Source of the DNA: Pseudonocardiaceae bacterium
Lineage (GTDB): Bacteria; Actinomycetota; Actinomycetes; Mycobacteriales; Pseudonocardiaceae
Reading direction: 5' to 3'
DNA: 64,000 nt
Assembly (NCBI GenBank): GCA_009379815.1
Contig: WHSY01000016.1
Location: 1 to 64,000 of the forward strand
How positions within the stretch are numbered: position 1 is the stretch's first letter; each line of letters opens with the position of its first letter. The position numbers and the translations under genes are program-made. The notes beneath the pieces are model-generated. The model had not been told where the DNA came from. It ran no database searches and saw only the letters and a program-made list of their open reading frames with translations. Positions 6,356 through 34,143 of this stretch are shown piece after piece.

Positions 6356-6927
6356 CAACTCTCCTTGAAGGGGAAGCCCAGGCGCCGCAGCAGCGCCCGA
6401 CCCTCCTCGTCGGTGGTCGCCGACGTCACGACCGTGATGTCCATGCCCCGTGCCCGGTCGATCGAGTCGGGATTGATCTCGTGGAACATCGACTGCTCAT
6501 TGAGGCCGAACGTGTAGTTGCCGTGACCGTCGAACTGCGTCGGCGACAGGCCCCGGAAGTCGCGGATCCGCGGCAGCGCGATCGTGAGCAGCCGGTCGAG
6601 GAACTCCCACATCCTGGCGCCGCGCAACGTCGCGCGGGCGCCGATGGCCATCCCCTCGCGCAGCTTGAACTGCGCGACGGACTTGCGGGCACGCCGCACC
6701 TCGGGACGCTGACCCGTGATCGAGGAGAGGTCGCGCACGGCGCCCTCCATCAGCTTGGCGTCCCGGGCGGCATCGCCGACACCCATGTTCACCACGACCT
6801 TCACCATGCGGGGGACCCGCATGGCGTTGTCGTAGCCGAACTGCTCCCACAGCGCAGCGGCGATCTCGTCGCGGTACCGGGCCTTGAGCCTCGGGACCTG
6901 CACTGCATCCTGCGTAGCGGTCGTCAT
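6355..6927 (-). CDS. rplE: Ribosomal protein L5 (uL5)
   Basis: 5S rRNA-binding protein. The 190-residue product contains [30 protein letters not shown] and [14 protein letters not shown], all typical of L5. The N-terminal ten residues ([10 protein letters not shown]) are unconserved. It is one base away from the stop of rplX and overlaps rpsZ. Confidence 0.96.
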
Positions 6928-23040: not shown

Positions 23041-23065
23041 GTGGACCGGCGCGCGCCCAGGGCGT

Positions 23066-23113
23066 CGGTCGGAGCACAGTCGGTCGGAGCACAGTCGGTC
23101 GGTCGGAGCACAC
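23066..23113 (+). repeat. 15-bp tandem repeat upstream of coxD
   Basis: CGGTCGGAGCACAGT is present at 23066-23080 and 23081-23095, and a third copy follows at 23096-23113 with a 4-base insertion (an extra GGTC). It lies in the 186-base gap before coxD. Confidence 0.8.
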
Positions 23114-23226
23114 GGGAGGACCCGAGCAATGTTCGAACGCGCTATCACGGGGGGTGGGATGGCCGCCCTCCCGGCCGGTGCGCCGTCGCGGTTCCACGGT
23201 CGCCTGCTGACCGGGGGGATCACCAC

Positions 23227-24102
23227 GTGAACTATCCGGACTCCGTCGATGACCTGATCGCGACGTTGCGGCGTGGCGACTACCTGGCAGACCGTGGACT
23301 GGCGACTGCTGTATTCGTGGCGATGTCCTTGCAGCGGCCCCTCCTGCTGGAGGGCGAGGTCGGCGTCGGCAAGACCGAGATCGCCAAGGTGCTGGCCTCG
23401 GTTTTCGACCGCGAGCTGATCCGGTTGCAGTGCTACGAGGGCATCGACACGAACCAGGCCCTCTACGAGTGGGACTACGCCCGCCAGCTGTTGCACATCC
23501 GGGCGTTGTCCGAGCATGACGTCAGCGACGAGGGGACCGTCGACAAGCTGTTCGGTCCGAAGTTCCTGCTGGAGCGTCCGCTGCTGCAGGCCGTCCGGGC
23601 GGGTGACCAGGCCATCCTGCTGATCGACGAGGTCGACCGCTCCGACGACGAGTTCGAGGCGTTCCTGCTCGAGGTGCTGTCCGACTTCCAAATCAGCATC
23701 CCCGAGGTGGGGACGGTCCAGGCGGAACGGCCACCACTGGTGATACTGACCTCCAACCGCACCCGAGAGCTGCATGACGCGCTGAAGCGGCGCTGCATGT
23801 ACCACTGGATCGGCTATCCCCCGCCCGACCGTGAGGTCGAGATCGTGACCGTCCGGGCACCCGGGGTGTCCGAGGCGCTCGCCCGCAAGGTGGTCGCAGC
23901 GGTCACCCGGCTCCGCGAGATGGATCTCGAGAAGCCGCCCGGTGTCGCGGAGACGCTGGACTGGGCCCGCACGCTGGAGTTCCTCGGTGAGGACGGCCTG
24001 GACGCCGACGTCGCCGAGACGACCCTCGGCTCGGTCGTGAAGGAACGCGACGACCTGGACATGGTGCGGGACAACCTCAAGGAGATCACGTCCCATGCCT
24101 GA
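23227..24102 (+). CDS. coxD: MoxR-family AAA+ ATPase, CoxD
   Basis: In CO-oxidising bacteria CoxD is a chaperone-like ATPase needed to build the Mo-S-Cu centre of CO dehydrogenase (family knowledge). The 291-residue product, from GTG 23227 (NYPDSVDDL), has Walker A EGEVGVGKT at 42-50, Walker B AILLIDEVDR around 130-140, sensor-1 LVILTSNRTRELHDAL and the MoxR-type KRRCMYHWIGYPPPDRE segment. The longer upstream frame is non-conserved repeat sequence. coxE starts 27 bases after its stop. Confidence 0.9.
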   Translation: MNYPDSVDDLIATLRRGDYLADRGLATAVFVAMSLQRPLLLEGEVGVGKTEIAKVLASVFDRELIRLQCYEGIDTNQALYEWDYARQLLHIRALSEHDVSDEGTVDKLFGPKFLLERPLLQAVRAGDQAILLIDEVDRSDDEFEAFLLEVLSDFQISIPEVGTVQAERPPLVILTSNRTRELHDALKRRCMYHWIGYPPPDREVEIVTVRAPGVSEALARKVVAAVTRLREMDLEKPPGVAETLDWARTLEFLGEDGLDADVAETTLGSVVKERDDLDMVRDNLKEITSHA

Positions 24103-24129: not shown

Positions 24130-25275
24130 ATGTCGAGCGGTAACAGTGCGTTCGTATCGGTGCTGGCCAACTTCGGCCGCGCGCTTCGTGCGGAAGGACT
24201 CACGGTCGGCTCCGGCGACATCCTGACGTACTGCGAGGCGATGACCCCGCTGGATCCGACAGACCTCGTCGACCTGTACTGGGCCGGGCGGACCTGCCTC
24301 ATCTCCCGCCGTGACGACATCCGCGCCTACGACAAGGTGTTTCGGGAGTTCTTTCTGGCGGCGGACAGTCCCGTCAACGATATGCTGCAGTTCAAGGCGC
24401 AGGCCGGTGCTGAAGCTGAGGCGGCCTTCGAGATCCCCGCTACCGAGCCCTCCGATGAGGAGCGTGAGGAGGAGGAGGCCCAGCTAGGGCTGATGGCCTC
24501 GGGCGTCGAGAGCCTCAAGCACAAGTCGTTCGCCGGCATCACCGCCGAGGAGGCCGAGGCGCTGCGGCGGATCATGAAACGGATCCGGCTGGACCCTCCC
24601 AAACGCCGCACGCGTCGCACGAAGACGGCGGGCAAGGGGCGCAAGCCCGACCTTCGCCGGACGATCCGCGAGTCACTGCGCACGCACGGCGAGATGATCG
24701 ACCTGTACTGGCGACAGCGCCGGGTCAAGGTGCGTCCGCTGATCCTCATCCTCGACATCTCGGGGTCGATGGCCGACTACTCCCGAGCCCTGCTGCAGTT
24801 CGCGTACTCGGCCAAGCGCGCGTCCCAGCCGGCCTCCCAGAAGGTCGAGGTCTTCTGCTTCGGCACCCGCCTCACCCACATCACCAAGCCGCTGCAGACG
24901 CGAAGCCCGGACGCCGCCCTGGACCAGGCCGCAAAGCTCGTGGTCGACTGGGAGGGGGGAACCCGCATCGGCGACTCGCTCGACGCGTTCGTGCACAACT
25001 GGGGGCGCAGGGGGATGTGCCGGGGCGGCGTCGTCGTGATCTGCTCCGACGGCCTCGACCGGGGTGACCCCGCCGTCCTCGCCTCGGCGATGGACCGACT
25101 CTCACGCCTGTGTTTCCGCATCGTGTGGATGAACCCCCACAAGGGCAACAACCCTGACTACCAGCCCCAGTCGCTGGGCATGATGGTGGCCTCCCCCCAC
25201 GTCGACGTGCTGCTGTCCGGCCACGACCTGAAGAGCTTGGAAGAGCTCGCCGAGCTGCTGCCCAAACTCGACTGA
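24130..25275 (+). CDS. coxE: VWA-domain protein, CoxE
   Basis: Partner of the CoxD ATPase in maturation of CO dehydrogenase. The 381-residue product has an N-terminal helical region of about 190 residues, a basic linker (PKRRTRRTKTAGKGRK), and a von Willebrand A domain from about residue 200. Its MIDAS motif is DISGSMADYS; the later CSDGLDRGDP provides the other metal side. Such CoxE-like VWA proteins usually pair with a MoxR ATPase, as here. Confidence 0.9.
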   Translation: MSSGNSAFVSVLANFGRALRAEGLTVGSGDILTYCEAMTPLDPTDLVDLYWAGRTCLISRRDDIRAYDKVFREFFLAADSPVNDMLQFKAQAGAEAEAAFEIPATEPSDEEREEEEAQLGLMASGVESLKHKSFAGITAEEAEALRRIMKRIRLDPPKRRTRRTKTAGKGRKPDLRRTIRESLRTHGEMIDLYWRQRRVKVRPLILILDISGSMADYSRALLQFAYSAKRASQPASQKVEVFCFGTRLTHITKPLQTRSPDAALDQAAKLVVDWEGGTRIGDSLDAFVHNWGRRGMCRGGVVVICSDGLDRGDPAVLASAMDRLSRLCFRIVWMNPHKGNNPDYQPQSLGMMVASPHVDVLLSGHDLKSLEELAELLPKLD

Positions 25276-26551: not shown

Positions 26552-26923
26552 CTACTGAGATGGGGGATGGTACCCCACTGATTCGCCGATCCGCGAACGC
26601 CGACGTCCCGAGGCAGGGGCCGTCTTATGGCCGTTGGCCGGCGGGGCGACCGGTGGCGCACTCTTGGCGATGATGCGCTCAGCGTGTCCGTACAGCAGCG
26701 GCAGCGCCCCGGCCACGCTTCCACCGGTGTTGTTGATGTGCTCGAGTCCGGGAATGATCGCCTCGCCGTGCCCCCTGATCGTCCGCACGCTCTCGGCGCA
26801 GTCATCGAGATTGTCGGCGATGCGTTTCAGCTGCATCCCGACCACGAACAGGTAGATTGCGAGCACCGCGATCAGGAACACGATCACGACAACCGACAGG
26901 AATATGAGCAGGCCCACCATCAC
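26552..26923 (-). CDS. One-helix membrane protein of the cox locus (last gene)
   Basis: 123 residues. Residues 3-30 are a strongly hydrophobic segment (LLIFLSVVVIVFLIAVLAIY), followed by a charged cytoplasmic part with a helix (QLKRIADNLDDCAESVRTIRG) and a Pro/Ala/Arg-rich tail. No enzyme motif. The start overlaps the preceding gene (26920) by four bases. It resembles the other small membrane proteins of this block in layout: an N-terminal helix then a 40-60-residue amphipathic part. Confidence 0.75.
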   Translation of the reverse strand: MMVGLLIFLSVVVIVFLIAVLAIYLFVVGMQLKRIADNLDDCAESVRTIRGHGEAIIPGLEHINNTGGSVAGALPLLYGHAERIIAKSAPPVAPPANGHKTAPASGRRRSRIGESVGYHPPSQ

Positions 26924-27234
26924 TGTTCCTTTCCGATCGGGGTCCCGGCGCCCGTCAACGCCCGACCCAGGAACAGGTGATGCTGCAGGCCTTCGGCCAA
27001 CACGGCATCGACCCGATCTCCTGTCTGGGTGATGAGCGTGGTATTTGCGGTGTTCCCGGTGATCGCACGCAGGGTATTACGGACGTCGACGACGCCGCGG
27101 TCGATGACCTTGACGAGCGACACGAGCATACTGAGTAGCAGGATCACCACGAGTACGACGACCGTGCCGACACCGATCGCGACCCACCAGTAGACGATCT
27201 CCTCCGGCGCGTATCCAGAATTCGGCATCGTCAA
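26920..27234 (-). CDS. One-helix membrane protein of the cox locus
   Basis: 104 residues. After a short polar N-terminus (MTMPNSGYAPEEIVYWW) comes a membrane helix at about 18-42 (VGTVVVLVVILLLSMLVSLV), then IDRGVVDVRNTLRAITGNTAN and a helical C-terminus. ATGA overlaps on both sides link it tightly to its neighbours. Function unknown. Confidence 0.75.
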   Translation of the reverse strand: MTMPNSGYAPEEIVYWWVAIGVGTVVVLVVILLLSMLVSLVKVIDRGVVDVRNTLRAITGNTANTTLITQTGDRVDAVLAEGLQHHLFLGRALTGAGTPIGKEQ

Positions 27235-27509
27235 CCCCCTAGTCTCGTGCGGCCACGCTCCAGCCCGGCGACGATGACCTCGGCGTGGTCCATGGTCTGC
27301 CGCAGGTCTGCCAACGGCAACGTGTCGTGGTACGCGCGCTGCAGGGCTTCATTGATCATCGGTGCTTGCCGGCCGATCCGGCCTGCCAGCACCAGGATCG
27401 GCGCAACCAGCGCCACAACGGCCCCGATGACCACGATCGCGATCACGAAGCCCAGGTTCCAGCCGAACAGGTCGGCCTCGGGCGGCGCCTGCGCCGCGAG
27501 GAGCATCAT
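27231..27509 (-). CDS. One-helix membrane protein of the cox locus
   Basis: 92 residues. The membrane segment is about 19-42 (FVIAIVVIGAVVALVAPILV), followed by an amphipathic helix region (INEALQRAYHDTLPLADLRQ) ending in RGRTRLGG. Starts with MM; either methionine may be used. Overlaps the next gene by ATGA. Confidence 0.75.
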   Translation of the reverse strand: MMLLAAQAPPEADLFGWNLGFVIAIVVIGAVVALVAPILVLAGRIGRQAPMINEALQRAYHDTLPLADLRQTMDHAEVIVAGLERGRTRLGG

Positions 27510-27548
27510 CCTGCAGCCTCCTTGTCGGTATGTTGCATTGCCTCGGCG

Positions 27549-27734
27549 TTACCGGGCCGAGAAGCCGGCCTCGTCGCGCACCGTCGACGCGAGGTAGCTC
27601 AGGATCGTCTGGGTCGGATTATCGACGTTGTGCACGTCCTTGACGTGCTGTTCCACCTGACGCATCAACTCGTCCTTCGTGGACGCCGTCAGGTGCGACG
27701 CGCACGCGGGGCTGTCGCAATGGAACTCCTGCAT
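27549..27734 (-). CDS. DUF1059-type small protein (cysteine form)
   Basis: 61 residues from ATG 27734 (MQEFHCDSPACASHLTAS). The M-x-x-F-x-C start, a second Cys shortly after, and the helix DELMRQVEQHVKDVH are the DUF1059 pattern (from memory). The family has no assigned function to my knowledge. The paired cysteines could bind a metal. A longer frame reaching upstream of the ATG is not conserved. It is paralogous to the gene at 27878-28075. Confidence 0.8.
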   Translation of the reverse strand: MQEFHCDSPACASHLTASTKDELMRQVEQHVKDVHNVDNPTQTILSYLASTVRDEAGFSAR

Positions 27735-27877
27735 CTCCCTGCTCCTCCTGTCCGGCAACCGGGGTCTCCCGTTGTCACCGCCCTGACACCGAACCCGACC
27801 CCGCGACCCACCGGGGCAGGTTCGCGATCACCGGCGCAAGGACTCTCGGGCTTTCGCCAACTTCGTGCTGTCTCGGC

Positions 27878-28075
27878 TCACCGAGCCGACGAACCGGATG
27901 CGTCGTCAGCCACCGCGCTGTCCGCGATGTAGGCCAGGACGGTCTGGGAGGGGTTTGCCACTCCGTGCACCTCGATCACGTGTTGCCTGATCTGGCGCAT
28001 CAGATCATCCCTGCTGGAGGCCGTGAACTCAGCGTCGCACTCGGCTCCTGCGTCTCGTCAATAGAACTGTTGCAT
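27878..28075 (-). CDS. DUF1059-type small protein with in-frame TGA at the conserved Cys (selenocysteine candidate or pseudogene)
   Basis: ATG 28075 reads M-Q-Q-F-Y, then TGA (28058-28060), then RDAGAECDAEFTASSRDD and 42 further residues to TGA 27878-27880. Apart from codon 6 the frame is intact. It aligns without gaps in its second half with the paralogue at 27549-27734 (LMRQ-QHV--VH-V-NP-QT-L-Y), and the TGA falls exactly at that paralogue's Cys6, which is also the first conserved Cys of the family. Downstream, GCAGGAGCC can pair with GGCCTCCAGC, closing on GTG...CAC about 20 bases after the TGA with a loop beginning CG; this meets the loose bacterial SECIS form but is hand-drawn. A nonsense mutation TGC or TGT to TGA remains possible. 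Confidence 0.6.
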
Positions 28076-28129
28076 CTGAATGCTCCTCGGCGTTCGAACC
28101 CGGCTCCCGGGTTCGCGACAGTCGCTGTC

Positions 28130-28357
28130 CTACACCCCTTCGGCCATGGTCCTGACCGGTTTGAGGTTGGCGTTGACAGAGGAGACGGCCGGAGGGACCG
28201 CCTTCGTCTGGAACGCGATCGACCGCACACCCACGACGACCGTGCCGAGGGTAAAGTTGACGTGCCTGAGGTGCAGGATCACCCGCAGCAGCGCCACCGC
28301 TGTGACCCCTACGATCAGTGCGGTGGCCAGTAGCGTGACCCACCCGGCCAGCGGCAT
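28130..28357 (-). CDS. One-helix membrane protein of the cox locus
   Basis: 75 residues. A membrane segment at about 5-27 (GWVTLLATALIVGVTAVALL) is followed by RVILHLRHVNFTLGTVVVGV, then a polar helix ending KPVRTMAEGV. No enzymatic motif. Same strand as coxG and its neighbours. Confidence 0.7.
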   Translation of the reverse strand: MPLAGWVTLLATALIVGVTAVALLRVILHLRHVNFTLGTVVVGVRSIAFQTKAVPPAVSSVNANLKPVRTMAEGV

Positions 28358-28399
28358 GGCTACTCCTTCCGTCGCTCGTTGCTCAGATCTGCCGGCACG

Positions 28400-28657
28400 C
28401 TATGCGCCCAGTATTTTTGCGACGCCCTTCACGTAACGGGTCGCGCCGACCGACACCTCTTCCACGGTGTTGTCGGTCGTGGCCAGCAACTCATGCAGGT
28501 TGTCGAGATGCCCGGTCAGGGCTGCACCGTTGGCCAGAATGTCGTCCACGCTCTTACGGATCCGCTCCACCGGGGCCAGGATCCGGTTCAACAACACGAG
28601 CACGATCGGGAACACCACGAAGAGCAAGATGATGTTGCCGATCCACCACAGGAACAT
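28400..28657 (-). CDS. One-helix membrane protein next to coxG
   Basis: 85 residues. Membrane segment at 3-25 (LWWIGNIILLFVVFPIVLVL), then an amphipathic helical stretch (ERIRKSVDDILANGAALTGH, LHELLATTDNTVEEV) reminiscent of methyl-accepting or DUF948-like helices. It follows coxG by 44 bases and is preceded by GAGGAGG. Confidence 0.75.
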   Translation of the reverse strand: MFLWWIGNIILLFVVFPIVLVLLNRILAPVERIRKSVDDILANGAALTGHLDNLHELLATTDNTVEEVSVGATRYVKGVAKILGA

Positions 28658-28701: not shown

Positions 28702-29268
28702 TCACGCAGAGCCCTTGCCGAAGATCCTGCCGAAGAACCGCTTGAGAGCCGTCACCATCGCCTGCATCCCGATGCTGAAGCCGCTCGCCGGCTTGGTCGC
28801 CGCGGGTGCCTCCCCCCTGCCGGCCTTGCCGATGTTGTCCTGGAGGCACTTGGCGAAGTCCCGCATGAGCACGTTCGTCACGTCCTGGATCATGCCTCGA
28901 CCGTACTGAGCGGCCGCCCCGGAGAGCTGGAGATCCTGGGAGACCTTGAGGCGCGTCCCATTGCCTGACGACGCCAGCGTCGACGTCATCTTCATGTTGG
29001 CCTGGCCCTTGCCCTTCTCCTCGGACCCACTCGCGTCCATCACGATCCGCTTGCCGGCCTGGTCCTGCTCCACGATCTCCGCCGTCCCGGCGAACTTCAT
29101 GGTGACCGGTCCCATCTTCGTGGTCACCCGGCCCTTGTACGTGCCGCCACCGGAGTCCTCGGTGATCTCGGCGCCCGGAATGCAGGGCGCCATGCGGGGG
29201 ACGTCGAGCATGTAGTTCCATACCTGCTCGACCGGCGCTGCGACGTCGATCTCATTCTCGATCAGCAT
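28702..29268 (-). CDS. coxG: CoxG, membrane-recruitment SRPBCC protein
   Basis: Member of the CoxG/SRPBCC family, which attaches CO dehydrogenase to the membrane (family knowledge; proposed link to the quinone pool). 188 residues: N-terminal MLIENEIDVAAPVEQVWNYM and MAPCIPGAEI are characteristic, the SRPBCC barrel spans about 1-145, and the end (GMQAMVTALKRFFGRIFGKG) is an amphipathic, basic-hydrophobic helix suited to membrane contact. It lies between the XdhC-YHS gene and the small membrane proteins. Confidence 0.9.
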   Translation of the reverse strand: MLIENEIDVAAPVEQVWNYMLDVPRMAPCIPGAEITEDSGGGTYKGRVTTKMGPVTMKFAGTAEIVEQDQAGKRIVMDASGSEEKGKGQANMKMTSTLASSGNGTRLKVSQDLQLSGAAAQYGRGMIQDVTNVLMRDFAKCLQDNIGKAGRGEAPAATKPASGFSIGMQAMVTALKRFFGRIFGKGSA

Positions 29269-29302: not shown

Positions 29303-30301
29303 TCATGTCACGACCTCGCTTGCGGAATCCACGAACGCGGCTGCATCCTTCTCGAACGCCGTGCGACACCCTGGACAGCAGAAGAAATAGGTAGTGCCGT
29401 CGTACTCGGCCTTGTGCCGCGCGGACCTCACCTCCACCGCCATGCCGCAGACGGGATCCACGGCCTCCTCGACGTCCGGGACCTCCGTGGCCACCCCGGC
29501 GGTCAATTTCCTTTCGGCGCCCAGCTTCACCAGTTCCGCCAGGATCGCAACAGCTATCTCGCGGTGCGAGGTCTTCCCGAGGTCCAGACCGGCCGGTACC
29601 GTCACGCGCTCCAGCGTTTCCTCCGGAAGACCTCGATCCCTCAGGTATCCCAGCACCGAGGCGCCTCGCTGGCGAGAACCCACCAGCCCGATGTAGGCGG
29701 GTCCGACACCCAATGCCCGCTCGACCGCGTCCTCGTCGTGGTGACCCTGCGTCGCCACCACGACGATCGAGCGCTCATTCACGCCGGCCGCCTCGAAATC
29801 GAGCTCGCTGACGACCCGGTCGGCATGCGGGTGGTCTTCGGACGAGCCCCCGTCGGGATCCAGGAGCACGGTGTGCCACCCGATCGCCGTCGCCATCTGA
29901 GTGAGCGCCTCGGTCATCGGCGACCGCCCCACGATCGCGACGTGAGGCCTGGGTTCGACGGGTTCGATGTAGACCTCCAGTGCTCCCTCACTCTGGCACG
30001 CGATCGGTACGGAGGTCACACCGTCGCGCGATGCCGCATCGAGTTCATCGGGTGGCCCGAGGAACATCAGGCGCGGCACACCCTCAGCGAGGGCGTGCCG
30101 CGCCTCGCGGACCACCACCGGCTCCGCGCAGGCCCCGCCGATCCAGCCCTGCACCTGCCCCGAGGCGGTGACGACCGCACGGTTGCCCTGCTTGCCCGAG
30201 GACGGGCCGCGCCGCCACACGACGGTCGCCAGCGCGAACACCTCGCCCCGCTGCGACAGCTCGCGGGCACGCTCGAGAACGTCCCACCCGTCCATGACCA
30301 T
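29303..30301 (-). CDS. XdhC/CoxI-family maturation factor fused to a C-terminal YHS domain
   Basis: 332 residues from ATG 30301 (MVMDGWDVLERARE), four bases after coxL. The N-terminal domain has WRRGPSSGKQGNRAVV and WIGGACAEPVVV, the XdhC start; a Rossmann-like C-terminal XdhC domain follows (HVAIVGRSPM, YIGLVGSRQRGASVL, LDLGKTSHREIAVAILAELV). XdhC proteins sulfurate the molybdenum cofactor. The last 50 residues are a YHS-type metal-binding domain: DPVCGMAVEV and TTYFFCCPGCRTAFEKD. YHS domains occur in copper and heavy-metal transporters, so copper handling for the Mo-Cu site is an attractive inference. coxF or coxI in other species corresponds. Confidence 0.88.
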   Translation of the reverse strand: MVMDGWDVLERARELSQRGEVFALATVVWRRGPSSGKQGNRAVVTASGQVQGWIGGACAEPVVVREARHALAEGVPRLMFLGPPDELDAASRDGVTSVPIACQSEGALEVYIEPVEPRPHVAIVGRSPMTEALTQMATAIGWHTVLLDPDGGSSEDHPHADRVVSELDFEAAGVNERSIVVVATQGHHDEDAVERALGVGPAYIGLVGSRQRGASVLGYLRDRGLPEETLERVTVPAGLDLGKTSHREIAVAILAELVKLGAERKLTAGVATEVPDVEEAVDPVCGMAVEVRSARHKAEYDGTTYFFCCPGCRTAFEKDAAAFVDSASEVVT

Positions 30302-30305
30302 CGGC

Positions 30306-32690
30306 TCAGTCGGTCTTGACCGGGGGCGCACCGGATACGTCGCGCTTGTACGTGATGGCCTCCCACACGCGGTCCGGTAGCAGGGGCATGTCGATGTTGC
30401 GGACACCGGTGTCGTCGATCGCATCCATCACCGCGTTGACGAACGCGGCAGGGCCGCCCACGGCCGCGCACTCCCCGACGCCCTTGGCGCCGATCGGATG
30501 GTGCGGCGACGCGGTCGTGACCTCGTGGAGCTCGAAGCCCGGAGTCTCCCACGCCGTCGGCAGCAGGTAGTCCATGTAGTTCGACCCGACGCAGTTGCCG
30601 TCGGCATCGAACGTGATGAACTGCATGTTCGCCATCGCGTAAGCCTCGGTCATACCGCCCATGATCTGACCCTCGACGATCATGGGATTGATGCGGACCC
30701 CGCAGTCATCGACGGCGACCATGCGCAACACGTCCCAGACGCCGGTCTCCGGATCGACCTCGACCGTCACGATGTACGCGGCGAACGGCCACGTCAGGTT
30801 GGGCGGGTCGTAGTAGGCGTTGTTCTCGAGACCCGGTTCGAGGCCGTCGGGCATGTTGGAGTAGGCGGCCATCGCGCAGTCCTGGATGGTCACACCCCGG
30901 TCGTGAGCGCCTCGGACGTAGAACCGACCCAGCTCCCACTCGACGTCCTCCTCGGAGACCTCCAGGAGATGGGCGGCCAGCTTCCTCGCCTTGGCGCGGA
31001 TCTTGCGGGACACCATGGCCGTCGCGGCCCCCGCCGTCGGTGTGCTGCGGGAGGCGTAGGTCCCCATGCCGTACGGCGTGTTGTCGGTGTCGCCGTGCTC
31101 GACGACGATGTCGGGGGCGGGGATGCCGAGCTCGTGGGTCACGATCTGAGCGAACGTCGTCTCGTGTCCCTGCCCCTGGGTCTTCGCCCCGATCTTCAGG
31201 ATCGCCTTGCCGCTGGGATGCACCCGCAGCTCCGCGGCGTCGAACATCTTGATCCCGATGATGTCGTACTCGCGGCTGTTGCCCGCCCCGAGCGGCTCGC
31301 TCATCGTCGAGATACCGATCCCGAGCCGCCGGCCCCGGGAACGGGCCTCCTCCTTCTCGCGCAAGAAGTCCTGGTAGCCGATGGCGTCCAGCGCCACGTC
31401 CAGGCACTTCTCGTACTGCCCCGAGTCGAGCAGGAACCCGAACGGCGTGCGGTGCGGAAAGTCATCGTCCTTGACGAGGTTCATCCGCCGGAACTCGGCC
31501 TGATCCATCCCCAGGTCGAAGGCAGCCGCCCGGATCATGCGTTCCTGGAAGAACATGGCTTCGGTGATCCGGAACGAACATCGGTACGCCACCCCTCCCG
31601 GCGCCTTGTTGGTATACGTCCCCTGGGCGGTCTGATAGCCGTACGGGATGTCGTAACAACCGAACGCCGAGTGGAACAACCCGATCTTGAACTTGCTGGG
31701 CTGCGCGTCGGAGAAGAACGCGCCGTTGTCGGTGTCCGCATGGAACCGGGTGGCGAGGATCTTGCCATCGTTGCGCAGCGCGAGCTGACCCTCGATGTAC
31801 ATGTCGCGCGCGAACCCGGTGGAGGTGAGGTTGCCGGTCTTGTCCTCGATCCACTTGACCGGACGCCCGAGCAGGATGGAGCACAGGATCGACGCCACAT
31901 ATCCCGGATAGACGGGGACCTTGTTGCCGAACCCGCCACCGATGTCCGGCGAGATGATCCGGATCATGTGCTCGGGCAGTTCTGCCACGAGCGCCACCGC
32001 GGACCGGATGATGTGCGGCGCCTGGGTGGTCATGTAGACCGTGAGCTTGGTGGTTGCGGGGTTGTAGTCCGCGATCGATCCGCAGCACTCGATGGGCGAC
32101 GGATGCGACCTCGGGTAGTGCAGCCGAAGCGTCGAGATCTTGTCCGCCTGGGCGAAGGCGCGCTCGGTTCCTTCGCGGTCGCCGACCTCCCAGCGGTAGC
32201 AGACGTTGTCGTTCTGGCCCACCTTGTCGTCGCGGATCAACGGGGCGTCGGATGCCAGCGCCTGCTCGGGGTTGACGATCGCGGGCAGCGGCTCGTACTC
32301 GACCTCGATCGCCTCACACCCGTCCTTGGCGATGTAGGGGTCGTCGGCGACCACGCATGCGATCTCCTGGCCCTGGAAGCGCACCTTGTCGGTGGCCAGC
32401 ACCGCCTGCGTGTCGTACGACAGTGTCGGCATCCACGCGAGGTTGTGCTGGGCAGCCATCTCGCCGGTGAGCACCATGTGCACACCGGGGATCTGCCAGG
32501 CCTTGGTCGTGTCGACCGACTTGATCCGCGCATGCGCCACCGGGCTGCGGAGGATCTCCATGTGCAGCATGCCGGTCAGCTTGAAGTCGTCGGTGTAGTT
32601 GCCCTTGCCGCGCAGGAAGCGGTCGTCCTCGACCCGCTTGCGACTCGAGCCCAACCCACCGATCTTGATTTCGTCTAGCGCTTGCGCCAT
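30306..32690 (-). CDS. coxL: Aerobic carbon monoxide dehydrogenase large subunit, form I
   Basis: Catalytic Mo-Cu subunit that oxidises CO to CO2, feeding electrons to CoxS and CoxM. 794 residues. The motif AYRCSFR (Cys371 is the copper-bound cysteine) is the form I signature, in contrast to AYRGAGR of form II. The molybdopterin motifs GGGFGNKVPVYPG and GQGHETTFAQI and the catalytic glutamate GVGECAAVGG (Glu740) are present. So this enzyme should be a true CO dehydrogenase. coxS lies 30 bases upstream, and the XdhC-YHS gene 4 bases downstream. Confidence 0.96.
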   Translation of the reverse strand: MAQALDEIKIGGLGSSRKRVEDDRFLRGKGNYTDDFKLTGMLHMEILRSPVAHARIKSVDTTKAWQIPGVHMVLTGEMAAQHNLAWMPTLSYDTQAVLATDKVRFQGQEIACVVADDPYIAKDGCEAIEVEYEPLPAIVNPEQALASDAPLIRDDKVGQNDNVCYRWEVGDREGTERAFAQADKISTLRLHYPRSHPSPIECCGSIADYNPATTKLTVYMTTQAPHIIRSAVALVAELPEHMIRIISPDIGGGFGNKVPVYPGYVASILCSILLGRPVKWIEDKTGNLTSTGFARDMYIEGQLALRNDGKILATRFHADTDNGAFFSDAQPSKFKIGLFHSAFGCYDIPYGYQTAQGTYTNKAPGGVAYRCSFRITEAMFFQERMIRAAAFDLGMDQAEFRRMNLVKDDDFPHRTPFGFLLDSGQYEKCLDVALDAIGYQDFLREKEEARSRGRRLGIGISTMSEPLGAGNSREYDIIGIKMFDAAELRVHPSGKAILKIGAKTQGQGHETTFAQIVTHELGIPAPDIVVEHGDTDNTPYGMGTYASRSTPTAGAATAMVSRKIRAKARKLAAHLLEVSEEDVEWELGRFYVRGAHDRGVTIQDCAMAAYSNMPDGLEPGLENNAYYDPPNLTWPFAAYIVTVEVDPETGVWDVLRMVAVDDCGVRINPMIVEGQIMGGMTEAYAMANMQFITFDADGNCVGSNYMDYLLPTAWETPGFELHEVTTASPHHPIGAKGVGECAAVGGPAAFVNAVMDAIDDTGVRNIDMPLLPDRVWEAITYKRDVSGAPPVKTD

Positions 32691-32720: not shown

Positions 32721-33212
32721 TCAGCGCCTGACAGCGGCTTCCGACCGCATCTTCTCTGCGGCCCACAGCACCGACTTCACGATGTTCTGGTAGCCGGTGC
32801 AGCGACAGAGGTTGCCGGACAGCGCCCAACGCACGTCCTCCTCCGTCGGGTTGGGGTTCTCTTCGAGGAGCGCCTTCGCGGTCATCATCATGCCGGAGGT
32901 GCAGAAGCCGCATTGCAGCCCGTGCTCCTCCTTGAAGCCTTCCTGTACGGCGTGCAGCTCGCTCGCCCTGGATATGCCCTCGACGGTTTCGACCTCGTGC
33001 CCGTCGGCCTGCACGGCGAACATCGTGCACGACTTGATGGGCTTGCCATCGAAGTTCACGGTGCACGCACCGCAGTTCGTCGTGTCGCAGCCGATATGCG
33101 TACCGGTCAGCCCCAGCACCTCGCGGAGGAAATGGGCCAGCAGCATGCGAGGCTCGACGTCGGCGACTTTGGGTTCACCGTTGACCGTGACGTTTACCCG
33201 CCGCTCTTCCAT
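32721..33212 (-). CDS. coxS: Carbon monoxide dehydrogenase small subunit (2 x [2Fe-2S])
   Basis: Electron-transfer subunit. I start at ATG 33212 ([14 protein letters not shown]) after GAGGAGG; 163 residues. The plant-type cluster is bound by [13 protein letters not shown] and a later KSCTMF Cys, the second cluster by QCGFCTSG and LCRCTGY. The frame extends upstream to 33353 but this is the coxM end. A 61-base gap separates it from coxM. Confidence 0.95.
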
Positions 33213-33273
33213 CGCGTCCTCCTCGGCGTCGTCGTTACTGTGAACAACCGATACCCTCTTTATCTCAGTCGAT

Positions 33274-34143
33274 TCAGGCCGCTCGGGCAGGTTGCCGGTT
33301 CGCCAAGGCGCGGCTGACGAATGTCTGCACGACGTGGCGCTTGTATTCGGCACTGCCGCGATGGTCGGTCTTGGGCTGCGCCGCCTCGGCGGCCAGCCGC
33401 GCCGCCTGATCGATCGTCCCGGAGTTCAGCGAATTCCCCACCAGGGCTTGCTCGGCAGCCGTGGCCTTGATGTTCTGCGGGCCGACCCCGGTCAATGCGA
33501 TGCCTGCCCGGCTCACCGTCGAGCCGGACGACTCGAGCGCCACGGCAACCCCGACGGTGGCGAAGTCCCCCACCCGCCGCTCGAGCTTGAGGTAGTCCCC
33601 CGACACGGTCCCCTTCGGCGCCGGGACCCTGGCTTCGACCGCAATCTCGCCCTGCCGCAGCGCGTTCTGGAAGGGCCCGACGACGAGCTCTGAGACGGGG
33701 ATGACGCGCTCACCCTCTGCGCTGGCGGCGATGATCTCCCCGTTCAGCGCCAGCATCACCGACGCCCAGTCGCCCTGCGGGTCCGCGTGACACAACGAGC
33801 CGACCAGGGTTCCGCGATTGCGCACGATCGGGTCGGCGATGAGCGGCGCCGCAGCCGCCATGGTCGGCTGCTGACGATGCAGCAGCTCGGAATGCTCCAG
33901 GTCGCTATGACGGCACAGCGCACCGAAGTGAAGCGTGCCGTCCGAATCCGCCCGGTGGTAGTCGAGCCCGGGGATATTGTTGATGTCGATGAGCACCTCG
34001 AACGAGGTGAAGCGCAATTTGATCATCGGGGTGAGGCTCTGGCCGCCTGCGAGTATCTTCGCATCCTCACCGTAGAGCTTCAGTAGATCGAGCGCTTCTG
34101 AGAGCGAACGCGGGGCCTCGTAGCGGAAACGAGACGGATACAT
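33274..34143 (-). CDS. coxM: Carbon monoxide dehydrogenase medium subunit (FAD)
   Basis: Flavoprotein subunit that passes electrons from the iron-sulfur clusters to the respiratory chain. 289 residues: [18 protein letters not shown], the FAD motifs [15 protein letters not shown] near 35 and [13 protein letters not shown] near 115, and the C-terminal domain ([10 protein letters not shown]). First catalytic gene of the coxMSL order. Upstream lie two 10-base TAGTCTTGGC repeats at about 34155-34174. Confidence 0.95.

Follow-up and report, generated by a model that had tools for sequence, protein, structure and literature searches.

Selenoproteins typically show an exchange of selenocysteine (Sec) and Cys at a conserved Cys position. 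An inventory of prokaryotic selenoproteins of May 2026 comprises 119 families and subfamilies, and DUF1059 (PF06348) is absent from its table (PMC13188914). Cluster descriptions from a second study place a DUF1059 gene in the gene clusters of group 1m [NiFe]-hydrogenases, and HylTM1-5 in those of group 1l (PMC9561532). Here we describe a DUF1059 gene in a carbon monoxide dehydrogenase (cox) gene cluster of an actinobacterium. The gene has an in-frame UGA as its sixth codon and very likely encodes a selenoprotein, the Sec form of DUF1059, with Sec presumed to be inserted at that codon. The window, that is, the whole stretch of 64,000 nucleotides that was analysed, contains the gene and its immediate features as follows.

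27878..28075, minus strand: proposed Sec-DUF1059 gene, 65 aa, MQQFY-U-RDAGAECDAEFTASSRDDLMRQIRQHVIEVHGVANPSQTVLAYIADSAVADDASGSSAR (sequence, Pfam match, dN/dS after the UGA)
28058..28060, minus strand: in-frame UGA, proposed selenocysteine codon, position 6 (same column in 32/32 UGA homologues)
28083..28088, minus strand: ribosome-binding site GAGGAG, upstream of the ATG (read from the sequence)
28037..28039, minus strand: Cys13 codon, second member of the U6/C13/H32/H37 motif (motif count)
27965..27982, minus strand: His32 to His37 codons, H-x4-H (motif count)
27549..27734, minus strand: Cys-DUF1059 paralogue, MQEFHC... (Pfam match)

Read on the minus strand, the window gene runs from an ATG (28075-28073) through MQQFY to a TGA (28060-28058), and then through 59 sense codons to its stop, also a TGA (27880-27878). 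An earlier note on this DNA had claimed that an otherwise intact DUF1059 frame is interrupted by this codon alone, and that the codon aligns with the conserved Cys6 of the adjoining paralogue (27549-27734). Both claims are borne out: the TGA is the sole defect of the 65-codon frame, and its column, that of the family's first conserved Cys, is Cys6 in the paralogue and in Pfam DUF1059 as well. With the TGA read as Cys, the product scores 50.3 bits on PF06348, where the cut-off is 21.1. The gene is hidden from standard annotation, in which it reads as a 5-codon stub. At the other end of the gene, a conserved inverted repeat (CTCGGCTCGGTGAGCCGAG in homologues) overlaps or follows the ends of Sec genes (27868-27890 in the window, with equivalents at loci L044 and L013) and may be a terminator or a processing site. 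A second Sec codon was considered for the copies at G000:C588 and G001:C72, which end in UGA, and was rejected: the window gene does not conserve this terminal UGA, and an inverted repeat comes after it.

The genome that contains the window (5.4 Mb in 733 contigs, 97% complete) carries selB, selA, formate dehydrogenase subunits, a tRNA-Sec with anticodon UCA, and selD on contig C21. SelA (409 bits), selB (287 bits) and selD (366 bits) all score above the curated NCBIfam cut-offs, and the tRNA-Sec(UCA) scores 76.7 bits. Two of the encoded proteins, selD and the formate dehydrogenase alpha subunit, have an in-frame UGA at the known Sec position, the latter in the context ...NQARI-UGA-HSSTV. The search for these four components of the Sec machinery that had been proposed as a check thus found every one of them, and the organism is therefore able to decode UGA as Sec. 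In the mechanism that we propose, codon 6 of the window gene would be decoded by the genome's own SelA, SelB, SelD and tRNA-Sec(UCA).

Recurrence of the codon was examined in about 940 actinobacterial genomes, surveyed in six frames by Pfam-based and profile-based searches of 150, 395 and 396 genomes. A contig scan with a single protein found one relative only, and the whole-genome profile search was needed for the rest. After extraction, the survey comprised 108 distinct DUF1059-type hits, with 4203 codons up to the last His. UGA-containing members number 32 distinct genes, the window gene included, in 18 genomes of eight families, two of them in the order of the window's organism and six outside its class; some lineages have several per genome, such as three in G686 and four in G647. 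All in-gene stops among the 108 hits are TGA at the Cys6 column (32/32), 7-8 codons before the next Cys, and TAA or TAG occurs in none. Two further stops in the search output are located outside the genes, and the TAG/TAA hits that it flagged proved to be normal ends or to precede the start. The window's genome contains two UGA copies. Moreover, a same-genus relative that was assembled independently (contig WHTH01000015.1, labelled Pseudonocardiaceae) shares both this UGA and the gene order around it, and its whole cox block is syntenic.

These data bear directly on whether the UGA is simply a nonsense mutation, the mark of a pseudogene or a sequencing error. One codon alone differs from the Cys form, as such a lesion would have it, and the earlier note had held that a nonsense mutation explains the TGA equally well. 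A nonsense model, however, predicts stops scattered over about 40 codons and among three stop codons, where one codon in one column is observed. Sequencing error is excluded because the UGA recurs in 18 genomes, and the two copies in the window's genome, together with the one in the sister species' syntenic cox block, also speak against a chance lesion. In addition, the 48 codons that follow the UGA have a dN/dS of 0.09-0.39 in the tested pairs, and of 0.11-0.15 for the window gene against its homologues; the frame downstream of the UGA is under purifying selection. The claim of equal merit is refuted by this selection and by the TGA-only, single-column recurrence, and mutation or error at codon 6 is extremely improbable.

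Other copies differ in setting and sequence. The second UGA-DUF1059 copy of the window's genome (L044, G000:C588, about 6739-6909, minus strand) has a non-cox context. Its dS to the cox-locus copy of the sister species is 0.35, and that of the window gene to either is 1.0-1.7; the closeness of L044 to the sister copy may reflect paralogy, gene conversion, transfer or a misbinned contig. The sister species also has a UGA-DUF1059 of another subtype, MAYRFVUEDAGALSCG (L047, G001:C2, about 24.2-24.4 kb), which adjoins a GlmU-like hexapeptide/nucleotidyltransferase gene. At L121 (G706:C271) and L130 (G617:C42), Cys directly precedes the proposed Sec (SICU and SLCU), a vicinal pair absent from the other members. 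A plasmid search gave no match.

Translation could also restart internally after the UGA, yielding a truncated DUF1059 and a short leader, and an in-frame ATG is indeed present at residue 26 of the window gene. Conservation, however, begins right after the UGA (DAGAxC) and includes Cys13, upstream of that ATG; the upstream Met and Phe4 are conserved as well, and it is the first ATG that has a ribosome-binding site. Restart is accordingly a most improbable account of the gene.

The selenoprotein reading is further supported by the exchange of TGA and Cys among relatives, which the earlier note had suggested examining: it occurs exactly at the Cys6 column, with intact downstream frames, including that of the syntenic cox block. 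In a DUF1059 tree, built on 61 columns and with many forks open, Sec and Cys forms are intermingled, such that at least three Sec/Cys changes are forced by well-supported branches and eight occur on the best tree. The Sec forms all belong to one subclade (DAGA/DVGA type, support 98/97), apart from the classical MKxFxCGDVVPGC type. SelA is above the cut-off in 16 of the 18 UGA genomes, and in 14 of the 14 that are at least 90% complete; of the two exceptions, G764 (81% complete) has only a fragment at a contig end, and in G888 (78% complete) none was found. The background in the phylum sample is 226/396. A search for tRNA-Sec with stricter filters succeeded in 13 of these 18 genomes and found none in the other five. 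Because Sec use is common in the phylum, the association of selA with UGA-DUF1059 is supportive rather than decisive.

The same results help to decide whether the UGA might instead be read through or reassigned as Cys or Trp, or act as a regulatory stop only. That folding energy does not demonstrate a SECIS element leaves room for such readings. They are opposed by the presence of selA in all UGA genomes of at least 90% completeness, by the use of UGA as a normal stop elsewhere, for instance at the very end of the window gene and of several relatives, and by the Sec/Cys exchange at a conserved Cys that typifies selenoproteins. We consider them very unlikely. With the Sec machinery, the TGA/Cys exchange, the selection and the 18-genome recurrence in its support, the selenoprotein first suggested as a candidate is the reading that we retain.

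A bacterial SECIS element must lie in the following region of the window.

28011..28057, minus strand: obligatory location of a bacterial SECIS (synonymous conservation raised among Sec genes; fold energy not significant)

A stem-loop drawn by hand in the earlier note is not supported. The minimum-energy fold does form a hairpin whose loop lies about 22 nt past the UGA, but this hairpin is no better than shuffled sequence (z -0.45), and the two closest Sec homologues do not share it. In a set of 30 Sec genes, neither the minimum free energies after the UGA nor a scan for bSECIS-like hairpins gave any excess over synonymous shuffles or Cys homologues. The formate dehydrogenase gene, a known Sec gene of the same genome, has a hairpin z of 0.11, and fold energy is therefore a poor test for SECIS here. 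Synonymous conservation shortly after the UGA, however, goes beyond what the amino acids call for, as a SECIS would demand. Its excess at codons 6-8 after the UGA is 0.75 in Sec groups vs 0.25 in Cys groups, and when codons 1-8 are set against codons 12-45 the difference is greater for Sec than for Cys groups (Mann-Whitney p=0.002, 8 Sec vs 10 Cys groups). Furthermore, the pair of genes from G111 and G122 has a covarying 7-bp hairpin, in which bases have changed yet still pair (z -2.0 and -3.4). Its loop, AGUUG, lies 21 nt past the UGA and has G at the second position. The L047 hairpin is canonical-looking, with a loop CGUGU 19 nt after the UGA. We take the conservation and covariation as evidence for an RNA signal just after the UGA in Sec genes, with no more than a tentative structure in the case of the window gene.

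The surroundings of the gene suggest what the protein may serve. The following genes flank it in the window.

23041..24102, plus strand: MoxR-type AAA ATPase (CoxD-like)
24130..25275, plus strand: CoxE-like VWA protein
26552..26923, minus strand: small membrane protein TM123 (no Pfam family)
26920..27234, minus strand: small membrane protein TM104 (no Pfam family)
27231..27509, minus strand: small membrane protein TM92 (no Pfam family)
28130..28357, minus strand: small membrane protein TM75, co-conserved with DUF1059 (no Pfam family)
28400..28657, minus strand: small membrane protein TM85, co-conserved with DUF1059 (no Pfam family)
28702..29268, minus strand: CoxG (PF06240)
29303..30424, minus strand: XdhC/CoxI fused to a C-terminal YHS domain, start codon uncertain
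30306..32690, minus strand: CoxL with active-site loop AYRCSFR
32721..33353, minus strand: CoxS, start codon uncertain
33274..34143, minus strand: CoxM

The AYRCSFR loop is that of form I CoxL. The Sec gene has a cox context in G000 and G001, which are syntenic, and partly in G647, and the cox locus of G200 contains a Cys-form DUF1059; the position of DUF1059 inside cox gene clusters is conserved. Homologues of TM85 and TM75 adjoin DUF1059 genes in many distant Actinobacteria, and G627 and G647 both show the order TM85-TM75-DUF1059(U)-DUF1059(C) again, in G647 beside MoxR and CoxE. Conservation of the five small membrane proteins (26552-28657) alongside DUF1059 extends across Actinobacteria, next to cox as well as [NiFe]-hydrogenase genes, and they look like one shared module. 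Genes of [NiFe]-hydrogenase subunits are among the neighbours of the Sec gene in G661, G748, G796 and G634. G735 has TPR, NifU-like and biotin-ligase-like genes, and G637 a biotin/lipoate-ligase-like gene, in which they resemble the group 1m hydrogenase clusters of PMC9561532.

From this conserved company, we suggest that Sec-DUF1059 and the block of small membrane proteins would form an accessory factor of aerobic trace-gas oxidases, the oxidase served being the Mo-Cu CO dehydrogenase here and [NiFe]-hydrogenases in relatives. Such a role is somewhat favoured by the evidence. The protein could instead be a selenoprotein that has nothing to do with trace-gas oxidation and acts, for instance, as a general metal-binding regulator: several Sec paralogues adjoin unrelated genes such as those for RtcB, a FeoB-like protein or a hexapeptide transferase, with no small-membrane block detected there. 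Indeed, no small-membrane-protein neighbour was detected for some 20 Sec genes out of 32, most of which are extra paralogues, and the trace-gas role may therefore not hold for all. Against an unrelated function stand the four-gene synteny between the window's genus and a distant family, and the hydrogenase or cox genes beside the Sec gene in several families; we regard it as a serious possibility, if the less expected one.

Conserved residues indicate how an accessory factor of this kind might act. The motif [C/U]-x4-7-C-x18-H-x2-4-H is present in 100 of the 108 hits; among the eight off-pattern, the more remote ones mostly retain a closely spaced Cys pair and H-x4-H. At L140, Cys replaces the first His. 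An AlphaFold model (pLDDT 66) predicts a beta-beta-alpha-alpha arrangement (E2-5 E16-19 H22-37), in which the hairpin bears the Cys/Sec pair and the two His lie where the first helix ends. A fold search with this weak model found no significant structural relative, and a search of solved structures found no relative. Sec would thus replace the first residue of a conserved set, U6, C13, H32 and H37, that resembles a C2H2-type metal site on a beta-beta-alpha core; a metal site is the obvious interpretation, at about even odds. Action would proceed via a metal held by U/C/H/H or, as the alternative, via a selenol/thiol redox switch formed by U6 and C13. A more specific proposal is speculative and rather unlikely: Sec would be one of the metal ligands in a site like that of C2H2 zinc fingers, and the family would form a membrane-associated module common to the Mo-Cu CO dehydrogenases and the [NiFe]-hydrogenases by which CO and H2 are scavenged from the atmosphere. 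If it is true, selenium supply would bear on aerobic trace-gas oxidation.

DUF1059 is very probably a selenoprotein family missing from the current inventory. NCBIfam has no DUF1059 model, and a literature search for DUF1059 and selenoprotein together found no paper; supplementary tables and subscription journals were outside its scope, and an earlier mention there is possible. The prokaryotic selenoproteome would thereby gain a family with several paralogues per genome in some lineages, and Sec would appear in an unusual setting, a Cys/Cys/His/His site and not a thioredoxin-type motif, within a domain of unknown function. The family would also tie selenium to CO and H2 oxidation loci in aerobic Actinobacteria, and it offers a testable approach both to DUF1059 and to the small membrane proteins, as yet without names, that these clusters encode.

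Compared with known systems, the family is familiar in some respects and distinct in others. Like the inventoried selenoproteins (PMC13188914), it has an in-frame UGA at a conserved Cys, Cys homologues and Sec machinery in the genome; unlike them, it is without a UxxC/CxxU motif, the partner Cys of the Sec forms being 6-7 residues distant, and has two conserved His. Pfam DUF1059 (PF06348) is described only with Cys at position 6, and the UGA members form part of a subclade apart from the classical type, whereas the match above cut-off, the equal length and the Cys/Cys/His/His pattern are shared. C2H2 zinc fingers differ in having a spacer of about 12 residues in place of 18, in the ligand at the first position, here Sec, and in the lack of a significant fold match, but they too have two Cys(Sec) in a (here predicted) beta hairpin and two His at a helix end. 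Finally, the descriptions of the group 1m and 1l clusters considered here from PMC9561532 contain no mention of an in-frame UGA, and the hydrogenases of our loci are identified at the level of [NiFe]; in both, however, DUF1059 and small membrane proteins stand beside trace-gas oxidases, and TPR, NifU-like and biotin-ligase-like genes accompany them in some of the loci described here.
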